DNA from: Pseudomonadota bacterium
Lineage (GTDB): Bacteria; Pseudomonadota; Gammaproteobacteria; Burkholderiales; Burkholderiaceae_C
Reading direction: 5' to 3'
Assembly: GCA_018241185.1 (NCBI GenBank)
Contig: JAFEEH010000217.1
Coordinates: 1-57,151, forward strand
DNA: 57,151 nucleotides
Below the pieces are notes generated by a model. The model was not told where the DNA came from. It ran no database searches and saw nothing but the letters and a program-made list of their open reading frames with translations. Made by a program: the position numbers and the translations under genes. Position 1 is the first letter of the stretch. Each line of letters opens with the position of its first letter. Shown piece after piece: positions 1,165 through 19,523 of this stretch.

Positions 1165-2391
1165 ATGCACAAGCCATCCATTGCCGAGGACGCTGCTCTG
1201 AAGGGGATCCGGGTGATCGACCTGACGACGGTGGTCTTTGGCCCTTACGCGACGCAGACGCTGGCCGAGTACGGCGCCGACGTCATCAAGATCGAGTCGC
1301 CAGAAGGCGACGGGACGCGCCGCAACGGCCCCGCGGTGGAGCCGGGCATGTCGTCGATGTTCCTCGGCTCCAACCGCAACAAGCGCAGCGTGGTGCTCGA
1401 CCTCAAGCGGCCCGCCGCGCGGGAGGCGCTGCTTGCGCTGTGCGACACCGCCGACGTCTTCATCCACAACATCCGGCCGCAGAAGCTCGAGCGCCTGGGC
1501 CTGTCTTCCGGCTTGCTGCGCGCCCGCAATCCGGAACTGGTCTACGTTGGGCTGCATGGCTTCGGCGAGACGGGCCCCTACGCCGGCGAACCGGCCTACG
1601 ACGACACCATCCAGGCCCTGAGTGGTGCCGCAGACCTTGTGCGCCGCCAGATGGGCGAGCCGGGCTACCTGCCCACCGTGATGGCGGACAAGATCGCCGG
1701 GCAGATGGCGGTGCACGCGATCATCGCGGCGCTGTTCCAGCGCGAGCGCACCGGCCAGGGGCAGAGCGTCGAGGTGCCGATGTTCGAGGCCGTCACGGCC
1801 TTCCTGATGGTGGAGCACTTCTTCGCCCGGCAGTTGCAGAACAGCGCCGCACCGGCACCGGCCACCGAGGAGGACATGGGCTACCCGCGCTCACTGGCCG
1901 CGTGGCGCAAGCCCTATCGCAGCGCCGACGGGTACGTCTGCATCATGCCGTACACCGACGAGAACTGGCGCCGCTTTTTCGTCGCGACGGGGCGCAGCGA
2001 CCTGCTGTCGGACGCGCGCTTCCAGACGCTCGCGCATCGCTCTCGCCACGTGGCCGAACTGCTCGAACTGGTCGGCGGCATCGTCGTCTCGCATCCCACG
2101 GCGCACTGGCTCGACCTGTGCCGCGGGCTCGACATTCCCTGCGCCAGGCTCAATCGCCTGGAGGACCTGGAGGACGACCCGCACATGCAGGCTGTCGCCT
2201 TTTTCCAGGCCCTGCCTTTCGACGCCACCACGCAGTTGTGCTTTCCGCGTTTTCCGCTGCGGCTGAGCGCCAGCCACGTCGCGCCGAAGTTGCCGCCCCG
2301 CCTGGGCGAGCACACGGCCGAGGTGCTGTCGGCGCTGGACCTCCCCGCGGACGTGCTGGGGGAACTGCTGGCTGGCGCGCACCCGGGCTGA
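1165..2391 (+). CDS. Type III (CaiB/BaiF family) CoA-transferase
   Basis: Moves CoA from a donor thioester to a carboxylic acid through an enzyme-bound aspartyl anhydride. The 408-residue length is normal for the family. The N-terminus GIRVIDLTTVVFGPYATQ leads to the AEYGADVIKIESPEGD stretch, and the catalytic Asp is probably D175 in VMADKIAG. The ATG at 1165 was preferred to an in-frame TTG at 1129 that lies inside the inverted repeats of the control region. It is the first gene of the long operon and lies 18 bases before the carboxyltransferase gene. The inferred role is to activate the acid that the carboxylase, hydratase and lyase then process. The acid itself cannot be read from the sequence; pimelate activation for biotin synthesis is a second possibility. 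Confidence 0.93.
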   Translation: MHKPSIAEDAALKGIRVIDLTTVVFGPYATQTLAEYGADVIKIESPEGDGTRRNGPAVEPGMSSMFLGSNRNKRSVVLDLKRPAAREALLALCDTADVFIHNIRPQKLERLGLSSGLLRARNPELVYVGLHGFGETGPYAGEPAYDDTIQALSGAADLVRRQMGEPGYLPTVMADKIAGQMAVHAIIAALFQRERTGQGQSVEVPMFEAVTAFLMVEHFFARQLQNSAAPAPATEEDMGYPRSLAAWRKPYRSADGYVCIMPYTDENWRRFFVATGRSDLLSDARFQTLAHRSRHVAELLELVGGIVVSHPTAHWLDLCRGLDIPCARLNRLEDLEDDPHMQAVAFFQALPFDATTQLCFPRFPLRLSASHVAPKLPPRLGEHTAEVLSALDLPADVLGELLAGAHPG

Positions 2392-2409
2392 ACGATTTCC
2401 GAGGAACCC

Positions 2410-4035
2410 ATGACCCAGATCGAATCCACGCTCGCCGTCCGAGGCGAGGCCTTCGAGCGCAGCCGGCAGGCCATGCTCGGCAACCTGGACCGGTTGCGCG
2501 CCATCGAACGCACAACACGCGAGACATCGCAAGCGGCCGGCCCGCGCTTTCGCAAGCGCAACCAGTTGCTGCCGTCCGAGCGTCTGGCGCTGCTGCTGGA
2601 CCGCGGCACCTTCTTCCTCGAACTCTGCTCGCTGGCCGGCTACGGCCTGGGGCCCGAGCGCGCCGACGGTCGACAGATCGCGGGTGGAGGACTTATCGCG
2701 GGCATCGGCCAGGTGGCAGGCGTGCGCTGCATGGTGTGCGTTTCCGACTCCGGCATCGACGCCGGAGCCTTTCAGCCGAAGGGGCTCGAGAAGCTGCTGC
2801 GAATCCAGGAGATGGCGCTGGAGAACAAGCTGCCCTTCGTCCAGCTCGTCGAGAGCGCGGGTGCGAACCTGATGAATTACAAGGTCGAGGGTTTCGTGCA
2901 AGGGGGCGAGAAGTTCCGGAACCTGGCGCGGCTTTCCGCGGCGGGCATTCCCGTCATCACGGTCACGCACGGTCCATCGACCGCCGGCGGCGCGTACCAA
3001 ACAGGCCTGTCGGACTACATCGTGATGGTGCGAGGCCGGTCCCGGGCCTTCCTGGCCGGGCCATCGCTGCTCAAGGCCGCGACCGGCGAGGTCGCCACGG
3101 AAGAAGAACTGGGCGGTGCGCTGATGCACGCCAGCATCTCGGGCCTGGCCGACTATTTGGCGGAAGACGACCGCGACGCCCTGCGCATTGCCCGGGAGAT
3201 CGTCCAGTCGCTGGACTGGAATGCACGCTCGCCCGCACGCCGCGAGCGCCGCTTCGCCGAGCCGCACTACGGCGCGGAGGAGTTGCTGGGCGTGATGCCC
3301 GAAGACCACCGGCGCCCGGTCGACATGCGCGAGGTGATCGCACGGATCGTCGACGGCTCGGAGTTCCGCGAGTTCGGCGCGCTCTATGGCTCGGCCACGG
3401 TCTGCGGGCACGCGAGCATCCGCGGCTTCGCGGTGGGCATCATCACCAACAACGGGCCGATCGAGCCCTCGGGCGCCGCCAAGGCGACGCACTTCATCCA
3501 GGCCTGCTGCCAGTCGGGCACGCCGCTGCTCTACCTGAACAACACGACGGGCTTCATGGTCGGTCGCGCGTTCGAGGAGGCGGGCAGCATCAAGCACGGC
3601 TCGAAGATGGTGCAGGCCATCACCAACGCCACGGTTCCGCAGATCACGCTGTTCTGCGGCGCGTCCTTCGGGGCCGGCAACTACGCGATGTGCGGGCGGG
3701 GTTTCAAGCCACGGTTCTGCTTCTCCTGGCCGAACGCGAAGACGGCGGTCATGGGGGCCGACCAGGCGGCACAGACCATGGTCAACGTACAGCGCAGCAC
3801 CATGCTGCGCAAGGAAGGCGCCGTCGACGAGGCCCGCCTGGAAGCACTGGGTGCCAAGGTGCGCGCCAATTTCGAGCGGCAGATGGATGTGTTCACCACC
3901 AGCGCCCATCTGCTCGACGACGGCGTCATCGATCCGCGCGACACGCGGGCCGTGCTCGCCATGGCGCTCGAGATCTGCAACGACGCCGAACTGCGTCAGA
4001 CCCGTCGCATGCAATTCGGAGTGGCAAGACCGTGA
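2410..4035 (+). CDS. Acyl-CoA carboxylase carboxyltransferase (beta) subunit, MCC/GCC type
   Basis: Transfers the carboxyl group from carboxybiotin to an acyl-CoA. The 541 residues contain the N- and C-terminal carboxyltransferase halves. Seen are FLAGPSLLKAATGE and ELGGALMHASISG in the first half, and LLYLNNTTGFMVG, then FGAGNYAMCGRGFKPRF and MGADQAAQTM in the second. These match methylcrotonyl- and geranyl-CoA carboxylases better than propionyl-CoA or acetyl-CoA carboxylases, but the exact substrate is not decided. The stop overlaps the GTG start of the biotin-carrying subunit by four bases, so the two are translationally coupled. Together with the following hydratase and lyase it forms a leucine/isoprenoid-type degradation module. 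Confidence 0.93.
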   Translation: MTQIESTLAVRGEAFERSRQAMLGNLDRLRAIERTTRETSQAAGPRFRKRNQLLPSERLALLLDRGTFFLELCSLAGYGLGPERADGRQIAGGGLIAGIGQVAGVRCMVCVSDSGIDAGAFQPKGLEKLLRIQEMALENKLPFVQLVESAGANLMNYKVEGFVQGGEKFRNLARLSAAGIPVITVTHGPSTAGGAYQTGLSDYIVMVRGRSRAFLAGPSLLKAATGEVATEEELGGALMHASISGLADYLAEDDRDALRIAREIVQSLDWNARSPARRERRFAEPHYGAEELLGVMPEDHRRPVDMREVIARIVDGSEFREFGALYGSATVCGHASIRGFAVGIITNNGPIEPSGAAKATHFIQACCQSGTPLLYLNNTTGFMVGRAFEEAGSIKHGSKMVQAITNATVPQITLFCGASFGAGNYAMCGRGFKPRFCFSWPNAKTAVMGADQAAQTMVNVQRSTMLRKEGAVDEARLEALGAKVRANFERQMDVFTTSAHLLDDGVIDPRDTRAVLAMALEICNDAELRQTRRMQFGVARP

Positions 4036-5999
4036 ACCCGTCATCCAACCTTCCAGACCCTTCCCCGGGCCGGCCCATCCGCACGCTCCTGGTCGCCAAT
4101 CGCGGAGAGATCGCGGCGCGCATCATGCGCACCGCACGTGCAATGGGCATCGATACCGTCGCCGTCTACTCGACCGCCGACCGCGAATCGCCGCATGTCG
4201 CGCTGGCCGATCGGGCGGTATGCATCGGCCAACCCGCGCCGGCTGCCTCGTACCTCCACATCGACGCGCTGCTGCGGGCTGCCGCCGCCACCGGCGCCGA
4301 TGCGGTGCACCCGGGCTATGGCTTCCTTTCGGAGAACGCCGCGTTCGCCGAGGCCTGCACGCGGGCCGGGCTGGTGTTCGTCGGCCCTTCGGCCGCCGCG
4401 ATCGACGCCATGGGCGACAAGGCACGGGCCAAGCGGTTCATGCGCGACGCCGGACTGCCCTGCATTCCGGGCTACGACGGCGATGTGCAGGATGCCGAAA
4501 CCCTGGCCGAGGAAGCGGCGCGCATCGGCTTCCCGGTGCTCGTGAAAGCCACCGCCGGCGGCGGTGGCCGCGGGATGCGCGTGGTCGAATCGATGGCCGA
4601 TTTCGTGCAAGCGCTGGAGTCGGCGCGTTCCGAAGCGCGCAACGCCTTCGGCGACGACCGCATGCTCATCGAGCGCGTGGTGCGCAATCCCCGCCACGTC
4701 GAGATCCAGGTGCTGGTGGACCGCGCGGGCAACGGCGTGCACTTCGGCGAGCGCGACTGCTCGGTGCAGCGCCGCCACCAGAAGGTGATCGAGGAGGCGC
4801 CGGCTCCAGGCCTGCCTCGCGCGTTGCGCGACACGCTGGGCCGCGCTGCGGTTGCAGCTGCAGTGAAGCTCGGCTACGAGGGCGTGGGCACCTTCGAGTT
4901 CCTGGTCGAGGGCACCGAGGCCTTCTACTTCATGGAGATGAACACCCGTCTGCAGGTGGAACATCCGGTGACGGAGGCGATCGCGGGCGTCGACCTGGTC
5001 GAGTGGCAACTGCGGGTGGCGATGGGGCAGATGCTGGACATCGCTCAGGACGACATCGATTTCTCGGGCCATGCCATCGAGGTTCGCCTGTGCGCCGAGG
5101 ACGAGAGCCGCTCGTTCCTGCCGCAGAGCGGGCGCATCGACTGGTGGCGTCCGCCGCATGGCATCCGTGTCGAGCACGCGGTGCGCTCCCAGATGGAGAT
5201 CTCACCCTTCTACGACTCCATGTTCGCCAAGCTGATCGCGCATGGCCGCGACCGCGAGGAATCGCGCCGCAAGCTGGTCAAGGCGCTGCGCGAAACCGTC
5301 GTCTTCGGCGTGAAGACGAACAGGCAGTCGTTGATTCGCTTCCTGGAGCACCCGGCTTTCGTGGCCGGAGGTGTCGACACGGGCTTCCTTCTGCGGCACA
5401 GCGAGGCGCTCGCCGTTCAGGCGGCGGGGGGCGATCCGTTGGCATTGGCATTGGCGTCGGCGGTGCTCTGCCGGGCCGGCTTGGGCACCGCGAGCCCCGG
5501 CGCCTGGTCCGTGGTGCTGCGCGATGAAGCCGCCAAGGACCATTCGATCCGTGTGACCCTGCGCCAGGAAGGCGATTGGGCGGTCGATCTCGCCAGCGAA
5601 TCGCTGGACTTCGCACTGCGCGACGGCGGCGAGCGGTGCCTCGTCTTCAGCCGTGACGGTGTCGATCGTCCCTTGTGGTGGCTGGTCGACGACGGGCGTG
5701 TCCATGTGCAATGGGAGGGGCGCTCGGCATCGTTCGTGGACGTCACCTACGCGGCGGCCTCCGAATCCGGCGACCTGGCCGACGGCAAGGTGCGCGCCTT
5801 GTCCAATGGCCGGGTCGCGTCGCTGCGGGTGAGCGTCGGCGACAAGGTGGAAGCGGGCACTGCACTGCTGACCATCGAGGCGATGAAGATGGAACACATG
5901 CACGTCGCCGCCGTGGCTGGCGTGGTGAAGGCCATCCTGGTCGCGCAGGGCGACTCGGTCATGACCGGCCGCGCGCTCGTCGAGATCGAGGCGGGCTGA
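4032..5999 (+). CDS. Acyl-CoA carboxylase biotin carboxylase + biotin carrier (alpha) subunit
   Basis: ATP-dependent carboxylation of biotin carried on the same chain. The 655-residue protein has the biotin carboxylase N-domain (TLLVANRGEIAARI near residue 20), the ATP-grasp glycine loop KATAGGGGRGMRVV, the EMNTRLQVEHPVTE signature, a linker domain and a C-terminal biotinyl domain. The biotin attachment site is EAMKM with Lys619. The start is GTG at 4032, giving a GTGA overlap with the beta-subunit stop; no better start lies upstream within the intergenic constraint. It is the only biotin-dependent protein in the window, and five genes of the same operon concern biotin synthesis, so its apoprotein may be the main sink for that biotin. 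Confidence 0.95.
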   Translation: MNPSSNLPDPSPGRPIRTLLVANRGEIAARIMRTARAMGIDTVAVYSTADRESPHVALADRAVCIGQPAPAASYLHIDALLRAAAATGADAVHPGYGFLSENAAFAEACTRAGLVFVGPSAAAIDAMGDKARAKRFMRDAGLPCIPGYDGDVQDAETLAEEAARIGFPVLVKATAGGGGRGMRVVESMADFVQALESARSEARNAFGDDRMLIERVVRNPRHVEIQVLVDRAGNGVHFGERDCSVQRRHQKVIEEAPAPGLPRALRDTLGRAAVAAAVKLGYEGVGTFEFLVEGTEAFYFMEMNTRLQVEHPVTEAIAGVDLVEWQLRVAMGQMLDIAQDDIDFSGHAIEVRLCAEDESRSFLPQSGRIDWWRPPHGIRVEHAVRSQMEISPFYDSMFAKLIAHGRDREESRRKLVKALRETVVFGVKTNRQSLIRFLEHPAFVAGGVDTGFLLRHSEALAVQAAGGDPLALALASAVLCRAGLGTASPGAWSVVLRDEAAKDHSIRVTLRQEGDWAVDLASESLDFALRDGGERCLVFSRDGVDRPLWWLVDDGRVHVQWEGRSASFVDVTYAAASESGDLADGKVRALSNGRVASLRVSVGDKVEAGTALLTIEAMKMEHMHVAAVAGVVKAILVAQGDSVMTGRALVEIEAG

Positions 6000-6030: not shown

Positions 6031-6762
6031 ATGACCGAACTCCTGATCGAAGACACCGGCGACGGCGTGCGAATCCTCACGCTGCAGCGACCGGAAAAGC
6101 ACAACGCGTTGAACACCGCGCTCACGCAGGCGCTGCTCGATGCACTGCTCGACGCAGATCGCGATGCGGCGTGCCGAGCGCTCGTCCTCGCGGGCGCCGG
6201 GCGCAGCTTCTGCGCGGGCGCCGACACCAGCGAGTTCGCCGGGCTTTCCGGCGACGATCCGCAGGCCGCCTTCGACCGTGCCGAGCTGACGACACAGTTG
6301 CACGCCGTGTTCACGCAGATCGCCAAGCCGGTCGTGGCTGCGGTGCATGGCAACGCCCTGGGCGGCGGTGCAGGACTGGCGCTGGCTTGCGACCTCATGG
6401 TCGTCTCGCAGGATGCGCGCCTGGGCTATCCGGAGTTGCGCCACGGCATCGTGGCAGCGGTGGTCATGGCGAACCTGGTGCGCCAGCTGGGCCGGAAAGC
6501 GGCGTTCGCGCTGGTCGCGACCGCGCAGCCCCTCAGCGGGCTGGACGCGCTGCGGCTCGGCCTGGCACTCGAGGCTGTCGCGGAAGGCGATGTGCTTGCA
6601 CGCGCAACGGCGATCGCCGCGTCGATGGCGGCCTGGTCGCCGCAGGCGATGGCCGCCACCAAGCGGCTCTTCTATCGGGTGTGCGAGCTGCCGTTCGCGG
6701 ATGCCCTGCAGGCGGGCCGGGACACCAACGCGCTGATGCGAAGCTTTCGAAAGGTCAAGTGA
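6031..6762 (+). CDS. Enoyl-CoA hydratase/isomerase family protein
   Basis: A 243-residue crotonase-fold protein. Visible are LTLQRPEKHNALN at the N-terminus, the first oxyanion-hole segment SFCAGADTSEF, and the second, VHGNALGGGAGLALACDL. The first catalytic Glu is kept in YPELRHG. The position of the second Glu of classical hydratases reads Ala in FALVATAQPLSG by my alignment. Its place between a methylcrotonyl/geranyl-type carboxylase and an HMG-CoA-lyase-like protein suggests hydration of a 3-methylglutaconyl-CoA-like product. It ends at TGATG, sharing one base with the next start codon. Confidence 0.9.
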   Translation: MTELLIEDTGDGVRILTLQRPEKHNALNTALTQALLDALLDADRDAACRALVLAGAGRSFCAGADTSEFAGLSGDDPQAAFDRAELTTQLHAVFTQIAKPVVAAVHGNALGGGAGLALACDLMVVSQDARLGYPELRHGIVAAVVMANLVRQLGRKAAFALVATAQPLSGLDALRLGLALEAVAEGDVLARATAIAASMAAWSPQAMAATKRLFYRVCELPFADALQAGRDTNALMRSFRKVK

Positions 6763-7724
6763 TGTTCCCGGTACATGTACCCGACGACAGGGATGTCGTG
6801 CTTTGCGAATGTTTTGCCCGTGACGGCTTGCAGCACGAGTCCGCCTTCGTGGCGACCGAAGAGAAGGCAGGCTTGGTCGACCGCTTCGCTGCGATCGGGT
6901 TCACCCGTGTCGAGGCGACCTCCTATTCAAATCCCAAGCTTGTGCCGCAGTTCGCGGATGCCAGCGAGTTGCTGGCACAGCTGCCGCGCCGCGCGGGCGC
7001 CTGGTACAAGGCCACGTGCGCGAACCTGCGCGCGGTCGAGCGCGCCGTGGCAGACCTGGAGCGTGGCGTGGGCGCCAACGAGATCAGTTTCCTCGCCTCG
7101 GCCTCGGAGTCGCACTCGCAGCGCAACCTCAAGCGCAGTCGCGAGGAGCAGTGGGACAACATCCGCCAGATGCGCGAACGTGCGGGTGACTTCTTCAGGA
7201 TCGTCGGCACGGTGTCCGTGGCTTTCGGCTGTCCCTTCGAGGGGCGCGTCGATCCTCGGCAGGTGTTGCACGACGTCCAGGCTTTCGCGCGCCTGGGCAT
7301 CGGTCTCGTCGCGCTGGGAGACACCACCGGCATGGCCACGCCGCGTGACGTGCGTGCGCTGGTCCGCCTGCTCGAGGCGGAAGTTCCCGAGGTCACGCTG
7401 GTGGCGCATTTCCACGATTCGCGCGGCACGGGGCTCGTCAACTGCATGGCGGCCTACGAGGCAGGGGTGCGCTACTTCGACGCCGCATTCGGTGGCGTGG
7501 GTGGCCACCCGGCCGCCATCGCTTATGGCGGTGGGTACACCGGCAACGTCTGTACCGAGGACCTGGTCAACCTTTTCGCGGCGCAGGGGATCCGTACGGG
7601 CATCGACCTTGCCGCCCTGCTGAACGTCGCGCAGCGTTGCGAGAAGGCGCTTCAGCGCCAACTGCTGGGCCATGTCACGCGCACGGGCCTGAGCCCGCTC
7701 GTCGCCGCGACGCTGTCGTCTTGA
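6762..7724 (+). CDS. HMG-CoA-lyase-like protein (HMGL/DRE-TIM family) with altered signature
   Basis: Retro-Claisen cleavage of a 3-hydroxy-3-methylglutaryl-CoA-type thioester is the expected reaction. The 320-residue TIM barrel keeps the metal and catalytic residues of HMG-CoA lyase: ARDGLQ (Arg-Asp), the HxH pair in VAHFHDSRG, and the Asn in TGNVCTEDL. The N-terminal [12 protein letters not shown] stretch also fits. The hallmark active-site loop GGCP of HMG-CoA lyases reads GGHP here ([14 protein letters not shown]), so the loop cysteine is replaced by His. That may mean a different substrate or a subfamily without redox sensitivity. The start overlaps the hydratase stop by one base. Ten bases separate its stop from the bioB start. 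Confidence 0.88.
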
Positions 7725-7734: not shown

Positions 7735-8748
7735 ATGAGCGCTACCACTGCAGTTCTCCTGTCCTCGATCGCACGCGGGGCTTCGCGTCCCAGCCCGCAC
7801 AAGCCGGAGCGCTGGCGCGTGGCCGACGTCGAGGCCCTGTTTTCGCTGCCCTTCATCGATCTGCTGCTGCGTGCGCAGACGGTGCACCGCGAGAATTTCG
7901 AGGCCAACGAGGTGCAGCTGTCGACGCTGCTGTCCATCAAGACCGGCGGATGCCCGGAGGACTGCGGCTATTGCCCGCAGTCCGCGCACCATCGCGCCGG
8001 GGTCGAGGCCGGACAGCTGATGGACGTCGGCGCAGTGGTGGCGGCGGCGCGGGCCGCGCAGGCGAGCGGCGCCACGCGCTTCTGCATGGGCGCGGCCTGG
8101 CGAAGCCCCAAGGCCCGCGACATGGAGAAGGTGGCGGACATGGTGCGTGAAGTGCGTGCACTGGGCCTGGAGACGTGCATGACGCTCGGCATGCTCGACG
8201 CCCGGCAGGCGCACGAGCTGAAGGAGGCCGGCCTCGACTACTACAACCACAACCTCGACAGTGCGCCCGACTTCTATGGTGCGATCGTCACCACGCGCAC
8301 CTACCAGGAGAGACTCGACACGCTCGCCAACGTCCGCGACGCCGGCCTTCGCGTGTGCTGCGGCGGCATCGTCGGCATGGGCGAGAGCAGGCTGCAGCGC
8401 GCCGGGCTGGTGGCGCAACTGGCCAACCAGGACCCCTGGCCGGAGTCGGTGCCGATCAACCACCTGGTGCCGGTGCCGGGCACGCCACTGGCCGATGCCG
8501 AGCCCATCGACCCGTTCGAGTTCGTGCGAACGATTGCGGTGGCGCGCATCACGATGCCCACCTCGATGGTGAGGCTGTCGGCCGGCCGCGAGCAGATGGA
8601 CGACGCGGTGCAGGCGCTGTGTTTCATGGCCGGCGCCAATTCCATCTTCTACGGCGACAGGCTCCTGACCACGGCCAACCCGCAGGCGGCGCGCGACATG
8701 GCGCTGTTCGATCGCCTGGGCCTGACGAAGACGCAGGTCGCCCGATGA
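7735..8748 (+). CDS. bioB: Biotin synthase
   Basis: Radical-SAM enzyme that inserts sulfur into dethiobiotin, the last step of biotin synthesis. The 337-residue protein carries the radical-SAM cluster motif CPEDCGYC with Cys73, Cys77 and Cys80 in the [13 protein letters not shown] context typical of BioB. Further family blocks are [25 protein letters not shown] and the C-terminal [17 protein letters not shown]. An AGGAATCCTCC stretch precedes the ATG. The ATG of the P450 gene overlaps the bioB stop by four bases. Linkage to a biotin-dependent carboxylase and to bioAFD supports the assignment; no other role is likely. Confidence 0.98.
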
Positions 8749-11442: not shown

Positions 11443-12625
11443 ACTGGAGGAAAAGGGGCTGAGGCGGCAGCGTCGCAGCGCCGAGTCGGCCAGCACGCCC
11501 TGGCGGCGCGTGCGGACGGCCGAAGGTTCGACGCGGGCCATGCTGTCCTTCTGCAGCAACGACTACCTCGGGCTGGCCACCCATCCGGGACTGGTGGCCG
11601 CGGTCGGCGAGGGCGCGCGCCGCTTTGGCGCGGGAAGCGGCGCTTCGCATCTCGTCAGCGGCCACTCGGTGGCGCACGACGCGCTCGAAGAGGAGCTGGC
11701 ACGGTGGATGTCGCCTCATATCCCGGGCGCGCGGGCATTGAGCTTCTCCACGGGCTACATGGCCAACCTGGCGCTCCTGACAGCGCTGGGCGACAGCAGC
11801 GCTGCGATCTTTGCAGACAAGCTCAACCATGCGTCGCTGATCGACGGTGCGCTGCTGTCCAAGGCCCCCCTGCAGCGCTATGCACACGGCCGCCTGGATC
11901 TGCTCTCGCTTCACCTCGAGCGGTGCACGCAGCCGGTGAAGCTGATCGTGACCGACGCCGTCTTCAGCATGGACGGCGATCGGGCGGACCTGCCTACCCT
12001 GCTCGCCCTGGCCGAGGCGAACGACGCCTGGCTGGTGGTCGACGACGCGCATGGCTTCGGTGTGCTGGGAGAGCAGGGACGGGGCAGCCTCTCCCACTTC
12101 AGCTTGTGCAGCGAGAGGCTGATCTACATGGGAACGCTGGGCAAGGCAGCGGGACTCGCGGGCGCGTTCGTGGCAGCCCACCCCGTCGTCATCGAGTGGC
12201 TGGTCCAGGCCGGGCGCACCTACATCTACACCACGGCACAACCTCCCGGCATCGCACACGCGGCTTGCACCGGGCTGAAGCTCATCGCGGGTCATGAGGG
12301 CGAAGCCCGACGTGCACGGCTGCGGCGCCTGGTCGGTGCCTTGCGCGACCGGATGGCCGCGATCACCGGCCAGCACCCTCGCCTGGGCTGGCTCCTGCCC
12401 GCGTCCGACACACCGATCCAGCCCCTGGTGGTCGGCACCAACGCGGCCGCGATGTGGCTCGCGGCCGCGCTGGATCGGCAGGGCCTGTGGGTGCCGGCCA
12501 TCCGACCGCCCACGGTGCCGCAGGGCACGGCGCGACTTCGCATCACGCTCAGCGCTTCGCATTCGATGGAAGACGTGGATGCGCTCGCGGATGGCCTCGC
12601 CCGTGCCGCTGGAAGAATGCAATGA
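11408..12625 (+). CDS. bioF: 8-amino-7-oxononanoate synthase
   Basis: PLP-dependent condensation of pimeloyl-ACP/CoA with alanine, the first step of ring assembly. The 405-residue protein shows FCSNDYLGLATHP, FGAGSGASHLVSG, FSTGYMANLALL, the cofactor Asp/His pair in VVDDAHGFGVLG and the Schiff-base Lys246 in TLGKAAGLAG. The ATG at 11408 lies inside the end of bioA; the AGCGGAGGA stretch just upstream serves as ribosome binding site. Its stop overlaps the bioD start (ATGA). Its acyl donor must come from outside the visible bio genes, possibly through the P450 or the CoA-transferase of this operon. Confidence 0.96.
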   Translation: MLIEHLSRRLLELEEKGLRRQRRSAESASTPWRRVRTAEGSTRAMLSFCSNDYLGLATHPGLVAAVGEGARRFGAGSGASHLVSGHSVAHDALEEELARWMSPHIPGARALSFSTGYMANLALLTALGDSSAAIFADKLNHASLIDGALLSKAPLQRYAHGRLDLLSLHLERCTQPVKLIVTDAVFSMDGDRADLPTLLALAEANDAWLVVDDAHGFGVLGEQGRGSLSHFSLCSERLIYMGTLGKAAGLAGAFVAAHPVVIEWLVQAGRTYIYTTAQPPGIAHAACTGLKLIAGHEGEARRARLRRLVGALRDRMAAITGQHPRLGWLLPASDTPIQPLVVGTNAAAMWLAAALDRQGLWVPAIRPPTVPQGTARLRITLSASHSMEDVDALADGLARAAGRMQ

Positions 12626-13398
12626 GCGAGCTCGACACCGTGTTGCGCGGTTGCTTCGTCACAGGCACCGATACCGAAGTCGGCAAGACGCGCGTGAGCG
12701 CAGGGCTGCTCCATTGGCTGGCTGTGCGTGGGTTGCGGTGTGCGGGCTACAAGCCGGTGGCCGCGGGCATCGAGCGCCTCGCCGGCGAATCGGTGAACGA
12801 AGACGTGCGCCTGCTGCACCGCGAGAGTTCGGTGTCCCTGTCGATGACCGAAGTCGGGCCTTGCCAGCTCCAGGCCGCATGTGCTCCGCACATCGCGGCC
12901 GAGTTGCAGGGGCGAACCATCGAGCGCGCCGCGCTCGTTGCGGGTGCCTGCGCGCTTGCCGGACGAGTCGACCATCTGGTGGTCGAAGGTGCCGGTGGCT
13001 TTTGCGTGCCGTTGGGCCAGGACTTCGACACCGCCGACCTCGCGGGCGACCTCGGGTTGCCGGTCGTCCTGGTGGTGGGGTTGCGGCTGGGATGCCTCAA
13101 CCATGCCTTGCTCAGTGTGGAAGCGATACGCGCCCGCGGCCTGCGTCTGGCGGGTTGGGTGGCGAACACGGTCGATCCCTCCATGCTTCATCCCTTTGCC
13201 AACCTGCGCACGCTGCGGGCTCTGCTGGGCGCGCGGGGCGCTCCTTGCCTGGGCGTGATCCCCCGGCTGACCGACCCCAGCCCCGCCCAGGTCTCCACCT
13301 GGTTGGACGACGACGCGCTGCACACCCTGTTTGCACTCCAGCGCACGGCATGCCAAGGGTTTTCCCCTGTCCGAAATCTAACATTCAATCATGAATGA
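12622..13398 (+). CDS. bioD: Dethiobiotin synthetase
   Basis: ATP-dependent carboxylation and ureido ring closure of diaminopelargonate. The 258-residue protein has the BioD P-loop GTDTEVGKT (residues 15-23), the substrate-contacting YKPVAAG segment and the VVEGAGGFCVPL motif. The C-terminal third matches NHALLSVEAIRARGL and the following Rossmann strand. Start and stop both overlap neighbours by four bases. Its last codons lie inside a 22-bp palindrome that could be an operator. It completes bioB-P450-bioA-bioF-bioD. Confidence 0.96.
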   Translation: MSELDTVLRGCFVTGTDTEVGKTRVSAGLLHWLAVRGLRCAGYKPVAAGIERLAGESVNEDVRLLHRESSVSLSMTEVGPCQLQAACAPHIAAELQGRTIERAALVAGACALAGRVDHLVVEGAGGFCVPLGQDFDTADLAGDLGLPVVLVVGLRLGCLNHALLSVEAIRARGLRLAGWVANTVDPSMLHPFANLRTLRALLGARGAPCLGVIPRLTDPSPAQVSTWLDDDALHTLFALQRTACQGFSPVRNLTFNHE

Positions 13399-13402
13399 AC
13401 GT
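13381..13402. promoter_or_regulatory. 22-bp imperfect palindrome, candidate TetR operator
   Basis: The left half reads ACATTCAATCA; the right half read from the other strand is ACGTTCATTCA, so 9 of 11 positions pair. It lies across the bioD stop and the first codons of the ABC ATPase gene, in a locally AT-rich patch. Size and symmetry suit a TetR-family dimer, and the operon ends with a TetR gene at 18834. It could control an internal promoter for the transporter half of the operon. No -10/-35 pair is convincing. Confidence 0.5.
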
Positions 13403-14243
13403 TAATATTCCTGTCATCATGAACACCCATTCGACAAGCATCGCGCCCAAGGCGAGAGCGCAGGCCCTGGCACCGGGGCGGGCCTTGCTGGCGGTGGAGA
13501 ACGTCTCCGTCCGCTTCGGCAGCATCGTGGCGCTGGACGGCGTGTCCTTCGACGTGCAGGCCGGGCAGGTGACGGGCCTCATCGGCCCCAATGGCGCCGG
13601 CAAGACGACGCTGTTCAACTGCCTTTCACGTCTCTACGTCTGGCAATCGGGCGACATCTTCTTCAACGGCCGCTCGCTGCGCCCGATCGCGACACACCGG
13701 ATCGCAGGGATGGGCATCGGCCGGACGTTCCAGAACCTCGCGCTGTTCGAATCGATGTCCGTGCTGGAGAACGTCAAGGTCGGCGGCCACAGCGTCACCT
13801 CGACCGGCTTCTTCGCGAATTCGCTCCGCCTGCCCGCGGTGCGCCGTGAAGAGCGTGTCCTGACCGAGCGCGCCTGCCAACTGATCGAATTCCTGGAACT
13901 CGCTTCGGTGGCGCACTTGCCGGCCGGGCAACTGCCCTTCGGCACGCGCAAGCGGATCGAACTGGCGCGCGCGCTGATGGGCAGGCCGCAACTGCTGTTG
14001 CTCGACGAGCCCGCTGCGGGCCTCAACCACGAGGAAGTCGATGCCCTCGGCGGCCTGATCCGGAGCATCTGCAAGGGGCTGGGTGTCACGGTGCTGCTGG
14101 TCGAGCACCACATGGGGCTGGTGATGGGCGTTTCCGATGCCGTGGTGGCCCTCAATTTCGGGCGTCGCCTTGCGGCCGGTACGCCGCAGGAAGTGCAGCG
14201 GCATCCTGACGTGATCGCCGCCTACCTGGGAGGCGCGCAATGA
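13395..14243 (+). CDS. ABC transporter ATP-binding protein, LivG type
   Basis: One of two ATPases of a branched-chain-amino-acid-type importer. The 282-residue protein has Walker A GPNGAGKTTLFN, a degenerate signature loop PFGTRKRIELARAL, Walker B LLLLDEPAAGL and the switch His in LLVEHHMG. The ATG at 13395 overlaps the bioD stop; an ATG at 13419 would remove eight residues and is an equal candidate, because neither has a clear ribosome binding site. The N-terminus is about 30 residues longer than usual. This family often imports organic acids and aromatic acids as well as amino acids, so the cargo is more likely the operon's substrate than leucine. Confidence 0.93.
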   Translation: MNVNIPVIMNTHSTSIAPKARAQALAPGRALLAVENVSVRFGSIVALDGVSFDVQAGQVTGLIGPNGAGKTTLFNCLSRLYVWQSGDIFFNGRSLRPIATHRIAGMGIGRTFQNLALFESMSVLENVKVGGHSVTSTGFFANSLRLPAVRREERVLTERACQLIEFLELASVAHLPAGQLPFGTRKRIELARALMGRPQLLLLDEPAAGLNHEEVDALGGLIRSICKGLGVTVLLVEHHMGLVMGVSDAVVALNFGRRLAAGTPQEVQRHPDVIAAYLGGAQ

Positions 14244-14956
14244 GCACCGAACTCCTGAAAGTGCACAACCTGTCGGCCTTCTATGGCCAGTTCCAGGTGC
14301 TCCACGGCGTCGACTTCAGCCTCCGTCAAGGCGAAATCACCACACTGCTGGGTGCCAATGGGGCGGGCAAGACGAGCACCTTGCGCGCGCTCTCGCAAAT
14401 GATCCGCACGCAGGGGCGTATCGAGTTCGAGGGCAGTTCTCTCGTCGGGCAGTCGACCGAGGCGGTGACGCGCTGCGGCATCGCCCATGTGCCCGACGGC
14501 CGCGGCACCTTCACCGGCCTGACCGTGGAAGAAAACCTTCGCCTGGGTGCCTACGTGCGGCGCGACCGCGCGGCGATCGCTGAGGACATGGAAAAGATGT
14601 ACGGCTACTTCCCGCGCCTGAAGGAACGCCGGGCGCAGCAGGCCGGGACGCTGTCGGGCGGCGAGCAGCAGATGCTGGCCATCTCGCGCGCGCTCATGCT
14701 GCGGCCCAAGCTGCTGCTGATGGACGAGCCGTCGTTCGGCCTCGCGCCGATGGTGGTGCGCGAGATTTTCGAGCTCATCCGCAGGATCAACCGGGCCGAG
14801 AAGACGACCATCCTCCTGGTCGAGCAGAACGCGGCACTCACGCTCGAGTTCGCGACCCATGCCTACCTGATGGAGACCGGCCGGATCGTGCTGTCGGGCA
14901 CTGCGGAGGCCATCAAGCAGGACGACAACGTGCGCAAGGCCTACCTGGGCTACTGA
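14240..14956 (+). CDS. ABC transporter ATP-binding protein, LivF type
   Basis: Second ATPase of the importer, 238 residues. Walker A is GANGAGKTSTLRA, the signature is LSGGEQQMLAISRAL, Walker B is LLLMDEPSFGLAP and the switch region is LLVEQNAALTLEFA. The PDGRGTFTGLTVEENL stretch is characteristic of LivF. Its start overlaps the stop of the LivG-type gene (ATGA). The 34-base gap before the permease gene is one of the longer gaps in this operon. Confidence 0.94.
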   Translation: MSTELLKVHNLSAFYGQFQVLHGVDFSLRQGEITTLLGANGAGKTSTLRALSQMIRTQGRIEFEGSSLVGQSTEAVTRCGIAHVPDGRGTFTGLTVEENLRLGAYVRRDRAAIAEDMEKMYGYFPRLKERRAQQAGTLSGGEQQMLAISRALMLRPKLLLMDEPSFGLAPMVVREIFELIRRINRAEKTTILLVEQNAALTLEFATHAYLMETGRIVLSGTAEAIKQDDNVRKAYLGY

Positions 14957-14990: not shown

Positions 14991-15863
14991 ATGGAGACGC
15001 TCATCCACCAGACCGTTGCCGGCCTTGCCACCGGCGGCGTGTACGCCAGCGTGGCGCTTGCGCTGGTCATGATCTACCAGGCCACCGGCAACGTGAACTT
15101 CTCGCAGGGCGAGATGGCCATGTTCTGCACCTACATCGCATGGGCGCTGATCCATGCGGGCGTTCCGTACTGGGGCGCCTTCATCCTGACGGTCGCCTTC
15201 GCCTTCCTGCTCGGCGCTGGCATTCAGCATCTGCTGCTGCGGCCCCTGGGCAACGTGCCGGTGCTGTCGACCGTGACCGTGTTCATCGGGCTGCTGGTCA
15301 TCTTCAACAGCGTGGCCGGCTGGCTTTTCACCTACACGATCAAGTCCTTCCCGAGCCCGTTTCCGGACCGGCCCTTGTTCGGGCAGACCTATGTCTCGTC
15401 GCACGAACTCGGAACCATCGGCATCACGCTGGTCGTGCTTGCCCTGCTGTTCGGCTTCTTCCGCTTCACCTCGCTGGGGCTGGCGATGCGCGCGGCGGCC
15501 CAGAACCCGGTCTCGAGCCGCCTGGTCGGCATCCGCGTGGGCTGGATGCTCGCACTGGGTTGGGGCCTGGCATCTGCCATCGGTGCGGTGGCCGGAATGA
15601 TGGTGGCACCAGTGCTCTACCTCGACCCCAACATGATGTCCGGGGTGTTGCTGTACGCGCTTGCCGCCGCGCTGATCGGCGGCATCGACAGCCCCCTGGG
15701 CGCCGTGATCGGCGGGCTCGTGGTCGGCGTGCTGGAGAACCTCGTCGGCACCTACCTGATCGGCACCGAGCTCAAGCTCACCATCGCGCTGCTGCTGATC
15801 GTCGGCGTGCTGGTGCTCAGACCCTCCGGTCTGCTGGGGACGCGCCACGTCTTGAAGGTCTGA
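14991..15863 (+). CDS. ABC transporter permease, LivH type
   Basis: A 290-residue inner-membrane protein with about eight hydrophobic segments. The family blocks GLATGGVYASVALALVMIY and NFSQGEMAMF near the N-terminus are typical of LivH. The loop GLAMRAAAQNPVSSRLVGI is the EAA-like contact with the ATPases. The C-terminus ends LRPSGLLGTRHVLKV, also a family mark. GAGGACACG lies before the ATG at 14991. It precedes the LivM-type gene by three bases. Confidence 0.93.
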   Translation: METLIHQTVAGLATGGVYASVALALVMIYQATGNVNFSQGEMAMFCTYIAWALIHAGVPYWGAFILTVAFAFLLGAGIQHLLLRPLGNVPVLSTVTVFIGLLVIFNSVAGWLFTYTIKSFPSPFPDRPLFGQTYVSSHELGTIGITLVVLALLFGFFRFTSLGLAMRAAAQNPVSSRLVGIRVGWMLALGWGLASAIGAVAGMMVAPVLYLDPNMMSGVLLYALAAALIGGIDSPLGAVIGGLVVGVLENLVGTYLIGTELKLTIALLLIVGVLVLRPSGLLGTRHVLKV

Positions 15864-15866
15864 GCC

Positions 15867-16850
15867 ATGATGAATCAAGCAACCACCACCTCGCTGCCGG
15901 CCACCGCATCGGCTCGCTCGAAGCGCGGCCTGCGCGCCGCGGCCCTGACTCTCCTGGCCGCCGGCATGCTGGTCTCGCCCTTCTTCGGGAGCAGCTACCT
16001 GCTGTTCCAGGCGACGATGGTCATGGTCTACGCGATCGCGCTGCTGGGCCTGAACATCCTCACCGGCTACAACGGGCAGATCTCGATCGGCCATGGTGCC
16101 TTCTATGCCGTGGGCGCCTATGTGGCGGCCATCCTGATGGATCAGTCGGCCGTTCCTTACTGGCTCACGCTGCCGGTGGCGGGCGCGGTCTGTCTGGTCG
16201 TCGGCTTCCTGTTCGGCCTGCCGGCGCTGCGACTCGCAGGCCTGTATCTCGCGCTGGCCACCTATGCACTCGGCGTGGCATTGCCGCAACTGCTGAAGTT
16301 CAAGAAGTTCGAGGGCTGGACCGGCGGCGTGCACGGCATCATCCTGAACAAGCCGGAAGCACCCTGGGGCCTGCCGATCAGCGCCGACCAGTGGCTGTAC
16401 TTCTTCACCCTCGCGGTGGCGGTGCTGATGTTCGTGCTTGGCTGGAACCTGCTGCGCGGCCGCGTGGGTCGCGCGCTGGTGGCGGTGCGCGACCACCCGA
16501 TCGCAGCGGTCTCGATGGGGGTGAACACCTCGCTCTACAAGTCGCTGGCTTTCGGCGTGAGCGCCATGTTCACGGGCATTGCCGGCGCGCTGAGTGCCAT
16601 CGCGGTGCAATTTGTGTCGCCCGAGAGCTTCACGATCTTCCTGTCGATCTCCTTCCTGGTCGGCATCGTCGTGGGCGGTGTCGCGACGATTCCGGGCGCG
16701 ATCTTCGGTGCCATCTTCATCCAGTTCGTGCCGAACTTCGCGGCCTCCATCTCGGAAGGTGCACCCTGGGCGATCTATGGCGTGGTGCTGATCGCCTTCA
16801 CTTTCCTGGCGCCGCGCGGCATTGCGGGCGCGCTTTTCCGACGCCGCTAG
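15867..16850 (+). CDS. ABC transporter permease, LivM type
   Basis: A 327-residue inner-membrane protein. After a polar N-terminal tail of about 25 residues come eight to nine hydrophobic segments with the LivM blocks GLNILTGYNGQISIGHGAF and GRALVAVRDHPIAAVSMGV, the latter being the ATPase-contacting loop. It ends FLAPRGIAGALFRRR. It pairs with the LivH-type permease to form the channel. Confidence 0.93.
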   Translation: MMNQATTTSLPATASARSKRGLRAAALTLLAAGMLVSPFFGSSYLLFQATMVMVYAIALLGLNILTGYNGQISIGHGAFYAVGAYVAAILMDQSAVPYWLTLPVAGAVCLVVGFLFGLPALRLAGLYLALATYALGVALPQLLKFKKFEGWTGGVHGIILNKPEAPWGLPISADQWLYFFTLAVAVLMFVLGWNLLRGRVGRALVAVRDHPIAAVSMGVNTSLYKSLAFGVSAMFTGIAGALSAIAVQFVSPESFTIFLSISFLVGIVVGGVATIPGAIFGAIFIQFVPNFAASISEGAPWAIYGVVLIAFTFLAPRGIAGALFRRR

Positions 16851-16912
16851 CCCGACGAACCAGCGCGGCAACCCTGACGACCACCAACCCTGAACAAGGA
16901 AAGAGGAGCCTC

Positions 16913-18112
16913 ATGAACATCAATCGACGCATTTCGATCGCCCTGGTTTGCAGTGCCATGGCGGCGGGCCAGGCCCTGGCGGCGGACTCTCCGGGCGTGA
17001 CCAAGACCGAGATCCGCCTGGGCCAGACCATGGCCTACAGCGGTCCGGTGTCCGCCTATGGCCAGTACGGCAAGGCCGAGGTGGCCTATTTCAAGATGCT
17101 CAACGAACGCGGTGGCATCAACGGGCGGAAGATCGAGCTGATCAGCCTCGATGACGGCTACAGCCCGCCCAAGACCATCGAGCAGGTCCGTCGCCTCGTC
17201 GAGCGCGACGAGGTGCTGGCGCTGTTCCAGAATCTCGGCACCGCCTCGAACACCGCCATCCAGAAGTATGTGAACGCGAAGAAGGTGCCCAACCTGTTCG
17301 CGATCTCCGGGGACTCCAAATGGGCCGACGGCACGGCGTATCCGTTCACCACCAGCTGGCAGCCGAGCAACCAGACCGAGGCCCGCGTGTACGCCAAGCA
17401 CATCCTCGCGACGCGGCCGAACGCGAAGATCGCGGTGCTCTACCAGAACGACGACTACGGCAAGGACGCACTGAAGGGCTTCAAGGAGGAACTGGGCGAC
17501 AAGGCGTCGTTGATCGTCGCCGAGAAGTCCTACGAGGTGAGCGATCCGACCGTCGACTCCCAGATCGTCTCCTTCAAGGGCGCCGGCGCCGACGTGTTCT
17601 TCAGCATCACCACGCAGAAGTTCGCGGCGCAGGCGATCCGCAAGGCCCACGACATCGGCTGGAAGCCCACGCAGTACCTCAACAGCCTGGCCTCGTCGGT
17701 GGGCGCCGTGCTGGAGCCCGCGGGGCTGGACAAGTCCGAGGGCATCATCTCGGTGGCCTACCTCAAGGACCCGTCGGACAAGTGGTGGGCCAACGACCCG
17801 GCCATGAAGGACTACCTCGACTTCATGAAGAAGTACCTGCCGGGCGACAACGTCTACGACACGATGAACGTATTCGGCTACTCGGCGGCCCAGACGATGG
17901 CGCACGTGCTCAGGCAGTGCGGCGACAACCTGTCGCGCGAGAACCTGATGTACCAGGCAACGCACATCAAGAACCTCGTCCTGCCGATGACCCTGCCGGG
18001 CATCGTGATCAACACCACGCCCGAACAGCGGACCGCGCTGCGCTCGATGCAGCTGGCCCGGTTCGACGGCAAGTCCTGGCAGCTGTTCGGCAACATCATC
18101 AGCGCCCGTTGA
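16913..18112 (+). CDS. Periplasmic substrate-binding protein of the ABC importer, LivK type
   Basis: A 399-residue exported protein. The signal peptide covers roughly residues 1-23 (RRISIALVCSAMAAGQALA, then cleavage near AAD). The mature part starts with TEIRLGQTMAYSGPVSAYG, the usual type I periplasmic binding fold. AAAGAGGAGCC precedes the ATG, one of the strongest ribosome binding sites of the operon, which fits the high demand for binding protein. Ligand residues cannot be assigned reliably. The ligand is presumably the acid or amide metabolised by the operon. Confidence 0.94.
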   Translation: MNINRRISIALVCSAMAAGQALAADSPGVTKTEIRLGQTMAYSGPVSAYGQYGKAEVAYFKMLNERGGINGRKIELISLDDGYSPPKTIEQVRRLVERDEVLALFQNLGTASNTAIQKYVNAKKVPNLFAISGDSKWADGTAYPFTTSWQPSNQTEARVYAKHILATRPNAKIAVLYQNDDYGKDALKGFKEELGDKASLIVAEKSYEVSDPTVDSQIVSFKGAGADVFFSITTQKFAAQAIRKAHDIGWKPTQYLNSLASSVGAVLEPAGLDKSEGIISVAYLKDPSDKWWANDPAMKDYLDFMKKYLPGDNVYDTMNVFGYSAAQTMAHVLRQCGDNLSRENLMYQATHIKNLVLPMTLPGIVINTTPEQRTALRSMQLARFDGKSWQLFGNIISAR

Positions 18113-18132
18113 GGCTGCGCGAGGCCCGCACC

Positions 18133-18837
18133 ATGCATCAGATCGACATTCCGCAGCACGTCCTCGACCGGGCCCGGGCCCGTCGAGGGTCGGTCGAGGT
18201 GTTCGGCGACCTGGATCCGTCGCGCACGGCATTGCTGGTCATCGACCTTCAGAACGGGTTCATGGCGCCCGGACAGCCCGGGGAGCTGCCGTCCGCCCGC
18301 GAGATCGCCGGCAACGTCAACCGCATCGCGTCGGCGCTTCGTGGGGCAGGGGGCCAGGTGGTGTGGCTCCGCCACACCCACGAGCCCGGCGACCACGCCA
18401 ATCCCTGGCCGCGGTTCGTCGAATTTGCCGCCGGTTGGGGCGAAGGCCTGAACGCGGCACTCGTGCCGGGCCAACCTGGGCACGAGCTTCATGCGTCGCT
18501 GGAGGTCTGCCCCGAAGACCAGGTGGTGAACAAGACCCGGTTCAGCGCGTTGATCCAGGGTTCGTCCGACCTGCACGAACGCCTGCAGCGGCGGGGCATC
18601 GACACCGTGATCGTGACAGGCACGGTCACCAATGTATGCTGCGAATCCACCGCGCGCGACGCGATGATGCTCAACTACAAGGTGCACTTCGTCTCAGATG
18701 CGAACGCGGCGCGCACCGACGCCGAGCACAACGCCACGCTGGCCAATATGCTGCTGTGGTTCGCCGATGTGCGCGATACCGACCAGATCGTCGATCTTCT
18801 GCGGGCGTCCGGCCAGCGCAGTCGTCAAATCCTATGA
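18133..18837 (+). CDS. Isochorismatase-family cysteine hydrolase
   Basis: A 234-residue amidohydrolase-type protein. The catalytic triad is visible: Asp38 in LLVIDLQNGF, Lys134 in VVNKTRFSAL and Cys169 in TGTVTNVCCESTARDAM. The family includes nicotinamidase, ureidoacrylate hydrolase, N-carbamoylsarcosine amidase and streptothricin hydrolase, so cleavage of an amide or carbamoyl bond is expected. Lying after the importer and before the regulator, it may release the acid from an imported amide or conjugate. A biotin amide such as biocytin is a tempting but unsupported guess. Its stop overlaps the TetR start (ATGA). Confidence 0.92.
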   Translation: MHQIDIPQHVLDRARARRGSVEVFGDLDPSRTALLVIDLQNGFMAPGQPGELPSAREIAGNVNRIASALRGAGGQVVWLRHTHEPGDHANPWPRFVEFAAGWGEGLNAALVPGQPGHELHASLEVCPEDQVVNKTRFSALIQGSSDLHERLQRRGIDTVIVTGTVTNVCCESTARDAMMLNYKVHFVSDANAARTDAEHNATLANMLLWFADVRDTDQIVDLLRASGQRSRQIL

Positions 18838-19523
18838 CCTCGACTTCTTCGTCCATCCGAACGCCCAGGAAAGTCTCGATATCCGCCGCGGCACGCCCCG
18901 CGAAAGTTCGTCGCTCGCAGGAGGAGCGGACGGAGGAGACGCGCTCGAAACTGATCGCGGCGGCGGTCGAGGTCATCAACGAAGTGGGGTTCGCCAAAAC
19001 CACCTCGTTGCTGATCTCCAAGCGCGCACAGGTGTCGCGCGGCGCGTTCCAGCACCAGTTCGGCACCGTCCAGAATCTGATGCTGCACCTGGTCAAGCAC
19101 CTTTCGAGCGACCTGGTGGGCCAGATCGAGCTGGAGAGCGTGCGCTATGCCTCTCCGACCGAGCGACTGCGTGCCATCGCGTTGCGTTACTGGAGCGTCT
19201 ACCAGAGTCCCGAGTACCGTGCCGTGCTGCTCATCTGGATCGGCTCCGTACCGCATGTGGAGCTGGCGGATCGCATCAACAGCCTGATGCAGTCGATCGA
19301 CGGTCAGCGTGACAGGAACTGGACCGAGATCTTTGCCGATCTCGCCATCCCCGAGCAGGACCTGCACATCTTCCGGCGCATGCTGCTTGCGGCTGTGCGA
19401 GGGCTGGCGATCCACGCGATCTACAGCCGCACGCAGGTCAGCTTCGACGAGATCCTGTCTCTGGTCGTTCGCCTCTGGGCACAGCTGACGGACCGGACCC
19501 GAATTCCCGAGTCGATCGCCTAG
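18834..19523 (+). CDS. TetR-family transcriptional regulator
   Basis: A 229-residue repressor-type protein. A basic, disordered tail of about 30 residues precedes the helix-turn-helix (about residues 35-80: TRSKLIAAAVEVINEVGF, then TSLLISKRAQVSRGAFQHQFG). The effector domain after residue 90 is not assignable to a ligand. It is the last gene of the operon and overlaps the hydrolase stop, so it is probably autoregulated with it. The palindrome at 13381-13402 is a candidate operator. Its stop overlaps the stop of the convergent SulP gene by three bases, with no room for a terminator between them. Confidence 0.93.
   Translation: MTSTSSSIRTPRKVSISAAARPAKVRRSQEERTEETRSKLIAAAVEVINEVGFAKTTSLLISKRAQVSRGAFQHQFGTVQNLMLHLVKHLSSDLVGQIELESVRYASPTERLRAIALRYWSVYQSPEYRAVLLIWIGSVPHVELADRINSLMQSIDGQRDRNWTEIFADLAIPEQDLHIFRRMLLAAVRGLAIHAIYSRTQVSFDEILSLVVRLWAQLTDRTRIPESIA

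Follow-up and report, generated by a model that had tools for sequence, protein, structure and literature searches.

A block of 18 genes at the left end of the window (the whole 57,151-nt stretch of contig JAFEEH010000217.1 analysed here) is fairly likely to encode the uptake and degradation of a 3-methyl-branched 2-enoic acid that is larger than 3-methylcrotonate, or of the amide of such an acid, and at the same time the synthesis of the biotin that the carboxylase of this route requires. At the sequence level, this reading is supported by the gene content, the compact gene order, the conservation of the block as a unit, the empty site in congeners, the presence in the block of the sole BioF found in its genome, and the recurrent linkage of biotin synthesis (bio) genes to carboxylase genes at other loci. 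From these features we infer co-transcription, the nature of the substrate, the role of a cytochrome P450, the mode of regulation and biotin prototrophy.

Layout and conservation of the gene block

The block comprises 17 genes, all on the plus strand, which span positions 1165–19523 with a largest internal gap of 62 bp, and a divergent gene of a LysR-family regulator (143–1081, minus strand). With the starts as chosen, 8 of the 16 junctions in the co-directional part overlap by 1, 4 or 35 bp and 8 are gapped by 3–62 bp. The original prediction for this DNA proposed a 17-gene operon with mostly overlapping junctions; all the genes that it named are indeed present on the plus strand, but the overlapping share is nearer to half. 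Terminator-like sites within the block occur at the level of chance (8 vs. 7.9 expected), and promoter-like sites are few (3 vs. 1.4 expected). An Rfam scan of positions 1–24000 yielded no family at threshold, riboswitches and other known RNAs included. The gap between the LysR gene and the first co-directional gene contains an operator-like dyad, ATCAA-N10-TTGAT (1114–1133), which is presumed to be the LysR site. It is present in a single copy in the window and in none of 100 shuffles.

All 18 genes are found in the same order in a genome of another genus of the same family (G564, locus L080), with protein identities of 67–93% and a DNA identity of 78% across 16.6 kb. The dyad is kept there as well. 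The last operon gene, which encodes a TetR-family regulator (18834–19523), is conserved in this genome too, where it continues from L080 into a second locus (L163); beyond the remainder of tetR, the flanks fetched from G564 contain none of the 18 genes. The LysR protein scores below cut-off with all the NCBIfam LysR models shown. Its gene is counted as part of the unit because it is kept at the same divergent position in G564, with 84% identity.

The surroundings of the block suggest that it was inserted. A SulP gene follows the block on the right and has matches in all 15 genomes of the genus to which the window belongs. In four of the five congeners fetched, the first ~70–93 bp of the window and the SulP region (from ~19550) are only ~0.7, 0.7, 1.0 and 3.0 kb apart. 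The left-flank matches are short and 72–79% identical, the weakest having an E value of 2e-4, and no such match was found in the fifth congener fetched. The SulP region of the contig is up to 92% identical to DNA of the genus; contamination is an unlikely cause, because the contig carries genus-typical DNA. The block apparently entered an otherwise conserved place in the genus as a unit. Further to the right, dispersed repeats of ~60 bp at about 21216–21307 and 22936–23015 match many contigs of the same genome and of congeners with ~76–94% identity.

Carboxylase, lyase and likely substrate

The catabolic part of the operon opens with a class III (CaiB/BaiF) CoA-transferase (1165–2391), whose top NCBIfam match, succinate-glutarate CoA-transferase, reaches 216.5 bits, under the cut-off of 750. 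It is followed by the two subunits of an acyl-CoA carboxylase, namely the beta subunit, or carboxyltransferase (CT, 2410–4035), and the alpha subunit (4032–5999), in which biotin carboxylase and biotin carboxyl carrier domains are joined and the biotinyl lysine is K619 in EAMKM. An enoyl-CoA hydratase of the crotonase fold (6031–6762, family match) and a lyase of the 3-hydroxy-3-methylglutaryl-CoA (HMG-CoA) lyase family (6762–7724) complete this part. The absence of an acyl-CoA dehydrogenase gene, noticed in the original prediction, holds for all 17 proteins of the operon.

The CT of the window scores 631 bits against the beta subunit of geranyl-CoA carboxylase (GCC; 5ikl) and 458 bits against that of 3-methylcrotonyl-CoA carboxylase (MCC; 3u9r). 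According to Jurado et al. 2015 (PMC4673880), the two enzymes are told apart by Gly162 in GCC and Phe191 in MCC and by a three-residue insertion in MCC. In an alignment to 5ikl, and assuming a one-residue offset in numbering, the CT has Gly165 at the selectivity position and lacks the MCC insertion; its MCC-type relatives carry HFGRIF at this site, and neither the Phe nor the insertion of MCC is seen in the window. The alignment with GCC beta begins at residue 4 and so takes in the N-terminal helix that is absent from the beta subunit of propionyl-CoA carboxylase (PCC). R170, a few positions past the selectivity site, differs from the GCC residue. By the published sequence rules, the CT is of the geranyl-CoA carboxylase type. 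An MCC pathway was considered and is ruled out by these scores and rules, and the description of the carboxylase as MCC-like in the original prediction has to be replaced accordingly.

The lyase belongs to its family by score (PRK05692, 257.8 bits against a cut-off of 246) and keeps RDGLQ at residue 20 and HFHD at residue 216, the latter containing the HxH motif. We take these two motifs, together with the loop cysteine in GGCP, to have functional roles in HMG-CoA lyase. The loop cysteine itself is missing: in the window and in L080 the loop reads GGHP and has four extra residues, whereas the other 10 of 12 aligned rows have GGCP. A structure prediction of the lyase from the single sequence was too poor to use (mean pLDDT 42.1). 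A GCC-type carboxylase and a lyase without the loop cysteine of HMG-CoA lyase make 3-methylcrotonate an unlikely substrate; judging by these sequences, the substrate is likely a larger 3-methyl-2-enoic acid. The genome of the window also has an MCC-type operon (C104). A second GCC-type CT (C138:84608-86212), 68% identical to that of the window, has a biotin carboxylase gene and two acyl-CoA-dehydrogenase-like genes nearby; the 20 kb fetched there contain no bio gene. With these two loci, plain leucine breakdown is probably covered elsewhere in the genome.

The operon further encodes an ATP-binding cassette (ABC) importer with a complete Liv/HAAT set: two ATPases of LivG type (13395–14243) and LivF type (14240–14956), two permeases of LivH type (14991–15863) and LivM type (15867–16850), and a substrate-binding protein of LivK type (16913–18112). 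The binding protein is a family match, the LivG-, LivF- and LivH-type proteins lie below equivalog cut-offs and the LivM-type protein below its cut-off; the whole set is below the curated Liv cut-offs. Between the importer and tetR lies the gene of an isochorismatase-fold cysteine hydrolase (18133–18837), similar to RutB, YecD and biuret hydrolase, in which the D, K and C stretches of the fold are present and presumably form the catalytic triad. In the proposed route, the importer would take up the substrate, the hydrolase would free the acid if the substrate is an amide, and the CoA-transferase would activate the acid. The GCC-type enzyme would then carry out a biotin-dependent gamma-carboxylation, the enoyl-CoA hydratase would hydrate the product, and the divergent lyase would cleave it into acetyl-CoA and a 3-oxo acid.

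Biotin genes, the P450 and recurrent linkage

The biotin synthesis genes occupy the middle of the operon in the same direction as their neighbours, the run from bioB to bioD being flanked by the lyase and importer genes with end junctions of 10 bp and −4 bp. Biotin synthase (bioB, 7735–8748; CPEDCGYC at residue 73), the 7,8-diaminopelargonic acid aminotransferase (bioA, 10033–11442) and dethiobiotin synthase (bioD, 12622–13398) score above curated cut-offs: 411.9 bits with TIGR00433 (cut-off 225), 493.8 bits with TIGR00508 (405) and 161.7 bits with TIGR00347 (83.3), respectively. The 8-amino-7-oxononanoate synthase (bioF, 11408–12625) is present as well, with 426.2 bits against TIGR00858, 0.25 below the cut-off of 426.45; it is ~49–76% identical to the BioF proteins of other bio loci. 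A pathway to a biotin-related natural product or antimetabolite could be imagined, since extra genes (for the P450, the CoA-transferase and the hydrolase) stand beside the bio genes and such products are reported in Streptomyces (PMC13336041). The set of bioA, bioB and bioD above cut-off with bioF just under it, the lack of any other BioF in the genome and the presence of an importer make this extremely improbable.

Among the 15 genomes of the genus, BioF (E ≤ 1e-40) was detected in that of the window alone, and the same is true of BioA above the curated cut-off, although all 15 also have sub-threshold aminotransferases. The gene bioB is present in 12 of the 15, so that 11 of the 14 congeners have bioB without BioF. 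None of the 14 congeners has the window-type P450 (E ≤ 1e-60), and no BioY biotin importer was found in the 15 genomes. The window's genome has a second bioB (L030, G000:C165, 9202-10224) located directly after genes for methylmalonyl-CoA mutase, MeaB, a PCC-type CT and a biotin carboxylase, as seen with rough open reading frame calling; in 10 of the 11 congeners with bioB, this gene likewise follows carboxylase genes (loci L151–L161). Possession of bioB alone is reported to be enough, in some cases, for auxotrophs to subsist on dethiobiotin (PMC9561691). Taken together, the gene counts suggest that the genus is probably biotin-auxotrophic and that the window strain gained prototrophy together with the block, so that the probable gain was twofold, a catabolic route and the ability to make biotin.

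The P450 gene (8745–10022) overlaps the bioB stop by 4 bp at its start, and the protein carries AGHETT, ExxR and heme-Cys stretches, which we take to be the P450 motifs of these names. Matches of at least 50% identity number 42 in 399 genomes of the family (the window's own included), and 36 of them have bio genes in the stretch fetched. Five of the remaining six are from one genus, one of these five being on a contig of 5 kb; the sixth is on a contig of 8.6 kb. A further scan of genome contigs gave eight P450 loci, six with bio genes (four of them in Variovorax) and two that end at a contig edge. Bio genes also accompany the P450 in four of six plasmid records (Cupriavidus P-10 and N-1, and EM10 and Polaromonas as broken pieces); two are without them (L043 and L046). 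The P450 occurs with bio genes even where no other gene of the window operon is nearby, and its neighbours outside bio loci share no common theme; at one such locus (L088) it stands next to succinyl-CoA-ligase-like genes. On the Cupriavidus plasmid of L043 (NZ_CP080769.1, 14860-19800), the P450 has a pyruvate carboxylase gene as its neighbour, and no bio gene was found in the 30 kb fetched.

The P450 might alternatively be catabolic and oxidise the imported substrate, while pimelate comes from BioC/BioH encoded elsewhere. The matches and plasmid records without a bio gene in the stretch fetched (6/42 and 2/6) are consistent with this, as are BioC-like matches (E ≤ 1e-20) in 63 of 80 genomes, though just one of the 80 has a match above the curated cut-off, and a report that the product of B. 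subtilis BioI is not used by BioF (PMC11089781). However, bio genes are found at 36/42 matches, 4/6 plasmid records and 6/8 contig-scan loci, also in the absence of the rest of the operon, and the bioB and P450 genes of the window overlap. We therefore regard a catabolic P450 as not very likely. The weak BioC matches occur in genomes with and without the P450, and 79 of the 80 genomes have no BioC above the curated cut-off regardless of the P450. The structure prediction from seven P450 sequences was too poor to use (mean pLDDT 44.6). A presumed pimelate-forming, BioI-like role, which its position among bio genes favours, is the simplest reading of the P450, and the P450 family may represent a further, proteobacterial route to pimelate.

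The linkage of bio and carboxylase genes recurs outside the window. Of the 59 bioF loci fetched, 24 have carboxylase genes no more than 10 kb from bioF (25 of 60 when the window is counted). The expectation, derived from five CT loci in the 5.34 Mb of the window's genome only, is ~2%; a binomial P for the difference disregards shared descent and is not used here. Linkage is seen at 19 of the 37 loci with the P450 beside bioF and at 5 of the 22 without it; no carboxylase was detected within this distance at the other 18 and 17 loci, respectively, some of which are on short contigs. The 22 loci without the P450 include 11 from genomes that have it elsewhere (none with a carboxylase nearby; one of them, L148, is a broken-off contig of a P450 cassette) and 11 from genomes that lack it (five with a carboxylase nearby). 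The 38 P450-bioF loci, the window included, are distributed over 22 genera, 12 of which have a carboxylase nearby at least once. The 59 loci and the window make up 60 of 61 BioF matches, a partial second match in G710 being left out. Loci on short contigs were retained, and L100 was counted as linked because its stretch ends in a partial match to biotin carboxylase. The 80 genomes used for the BioF and BioC searches include 50 chosen for a P450 match, so 24/59 is not a population frequency; with a sample enriched for the P450 and several loci sharing a genus, the counts document that the linkage recurs but not how frequent it is. Linkage of bio and carboxylase genes is thus common but not required. 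The original prediction had made its single-system idea depend in part on whether related genomes keep these genes together; they do, and on this point the idea is not refuted.

The carboxylases involved differ in type. The labels PCC, MCC and GCC were assigned from identity to the window CT (~30, 45 and >55%), and further genes were checked in few loci. PCC-type genes are found upstream of the set bioA-F-D-B-P450; in L103 and L104, a gene resembling those for glyoxalase/methylmalonyl-CoA epimerase, which scores below the epimerase cut-off, lies in between. In five genomes of the family without the P450 (L125–L129), bioA-F-D(-B) is placed between CT/hydratase genes and biotin carboxylase/HMG-CoA-lyase genes of MCC type. 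GCC-type linkage is found in the window and G564, and Burkholderia guangdongensis (L027) and three Cupriavidus plasmids (L044, L045 and L051) also pair bio and carboxylase genes. In a BioF tree of 68 rows built by a quick method, the presence or absence of a carboxylase changes eight times, and starred branches force seven of these changes. The two GCC-type rows group together (SH-aLRT 98) beside stand-alone Variovorax cassettes.

This variation bears on two other explanations. A catabolic operon and a biotin cassette may have been joined by chance and then co-inherited or co-transferred, biotin prototrophy being the only gain. The cassettes without a detected carboxylase at 18/37 P450-linked loci agree with this; they include four Variovorax loci (L022–L025) that are, along with G564, the nearest BioF kin of the window. 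Linkage is also clustered on the BioF tree, so the loci are not independent. However, it switches repeatedly along the tree, the carboxylases concerned are of three or more types, and in the window the bio genes sit mid-operon in one direction with tight junctions at both ends. Chance joining thus seems rather unlikely. The second reading of the original prediction, in which the pimeloyl precursor of biotin comes from the CoA-transferase, carboxylase, hydratase and lyase, has turned out to be highly improbable. In its favour, these genes are in one operon with bioBAFD, and BioZ/CaiB is listed in a review among the routes to pimelate (PMC11089781). The bio cassette, however, occurs with PCC-, MCC- or GCC-type carboxylases or with none detected, the P450 recurs beside it, and no BioZ or BioW model is among the NCBIfam matches listed for the 17 proteins. 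Nor are we aware of any reaction by which the products that the lyase would release from a 3-methyl-branched acid could become a straight C7 diacid. That the carboxylase type varies among loci favours a cofactor made together with its consumer over a carboxylase that supplies pimelate. A degradation route that makes its own cofactor, the first reading of the original prediction, is therefore the better one, as the block is conserved, was apparently inserted as a unit, carries the only BioF found in the genome and belongs to a pattern with varied carboxylase partners; the carboxylase, however, is of GCC type, and 3-methylcrotonate is an unlikely substrate.

Several observations weigh against a substrate-specific operon that makes its own biotin. 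Besides the loci without a detected carboxylase counted above, the alpha subunit has MCC alpha (3u9s, 599 bits) as its nearest solved chain, and the hydratase scores 89 bits against isohexenylglutaconyl-CoA hydratase (4zu2), its best chain reaching 127 bits. For relatives of the CT in Tistrella (69%) and Haematobacter (61%), the 12 kb fetched to either side contain no bio gene. The P450 reaches 181 bits with BioI and 210 bits with the best P450, which indicates no special affinity to BioI. The presumed auxotrophy of the congeners is based on the searches for BioF and BioA. Finally, strict control of the sole BioF by the substrate would make the strain an auxotroph under other conditions, so basal expression or scavenging must be assumed.

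Elsewhere in the window, positions 27703–36000 encode a LigXa-like Rieske ring-hydroxylating oxygenase together with a periplasmic binding protein and an ATPase of Liv type; this may be a cluster for the degradation of aromatic acids that has a dedicated importer. At 52865–55280, a gene for a DUF993 protein adjoins that of a GFO/IDH/MocA oxidoreductase.

Proposed coupling of biotin supply to demand, and known systems

In the proposed mechanism, the P450 would provide a pimeloyl thioester, which BioF, BioA, BioD and BioB would convert to biotin, all from the same transcript as the catabolic enzymes. The promoter region between the LysR and CoA-transferase genes would tie the biotin supply to the substrate, growth on which would need more biotinylated protein than growth on, for example, succinate. 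According to Leyn et al. 2016 (PMC5343134), BirA of alpha- and betaproteobacteria has lost its DNA-binding domain. Coupling would be sensible where there is no BirA repressor, because growth on the substrate should raise the demand for biotinylated protein. We tentatively extend this to a wider proposal, which we regard as possible rather than probable: in Burkholderiales, biotin synthesis would have been taken repeatedly into catabolic-carboxylase operons in place of repression by biotin feedback, prototrophy in the genus of the window would be conditional on the substrate, and the P450 would be a BioI-like pimelate enzyme. If betaproteobacteria have no BirA repressor, as reported, the adjustment of biotin synthesis needs another answer, and coupling to carboxylases is a testable one, in which supply follows demand. 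It would also mean that a vitamin auxotroph could regain prototrophy by acquiring a catabolic operon.

The composition of the block was not found in the open-licence literature searched, but parts of it resemble known systems. With the Atu (acyclic terpene utilisation) pathway of Pseudomonas and its geranyl-CoA carboxylase (PMC4673880), the block shares a GCC-type CT, a biotin carboxylase subunit, a hydratase and a lyase of the HMG-CoA-lyase family; it differs in having a CoA-transferase instead of a ligase, no dehydrogenase, a divergent lyase loop, and bio genes, a P450 and an importer in the operon. Bacillus BioI is likewise a P450 encoded with late biotin genes (PMC11089781), whereas the P450 of the window is no closer to BioI than to other P450s, and no BioW model is among the matches listed. 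The MCC-type (liu-like) operons of the same family (L125–L129) also hold bio genes inside an operon for a gamma-carboxylating acyl-CoA carboxylase. Unlike the window, they have the MCC signature HFGRIF, no P450 and another gene order.

Dawson et al. 2022 (PMC9804861) described an isoprene-induced carboxylase-bioAFDB cluster in Variovorax sp. WS11. As in the window, carboxylase subunits, a hydratase and bioA-F-D-B are brought together in one cluster of ~20 kb, which is induced there by the growth substrate. The genes named in the legend of its figure S2B include those for an acyl-CoA dehydrogenase and a CoA ligase but none for an importer, a hydrolase or a CoA-transferase, the term P450 is absent from the main text, and the gene order resembles that of L125–L128 rather than that of the window. 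In P. putida, fitness modules group biotin genes with those for MCC and pyruvate carboxylase (PycAB) (PMC10949508). The principle of coupling bio genes to carboxylases therefore has precedent in WS11 and P. putida. So far as the literature was searched, what appears to be new is the GCC-type composition with a P450, an importer and a hydrolase, its presence as a unit in a genus otherwise lacking BioF, and the recurrence of the linkage with different carboxylases.

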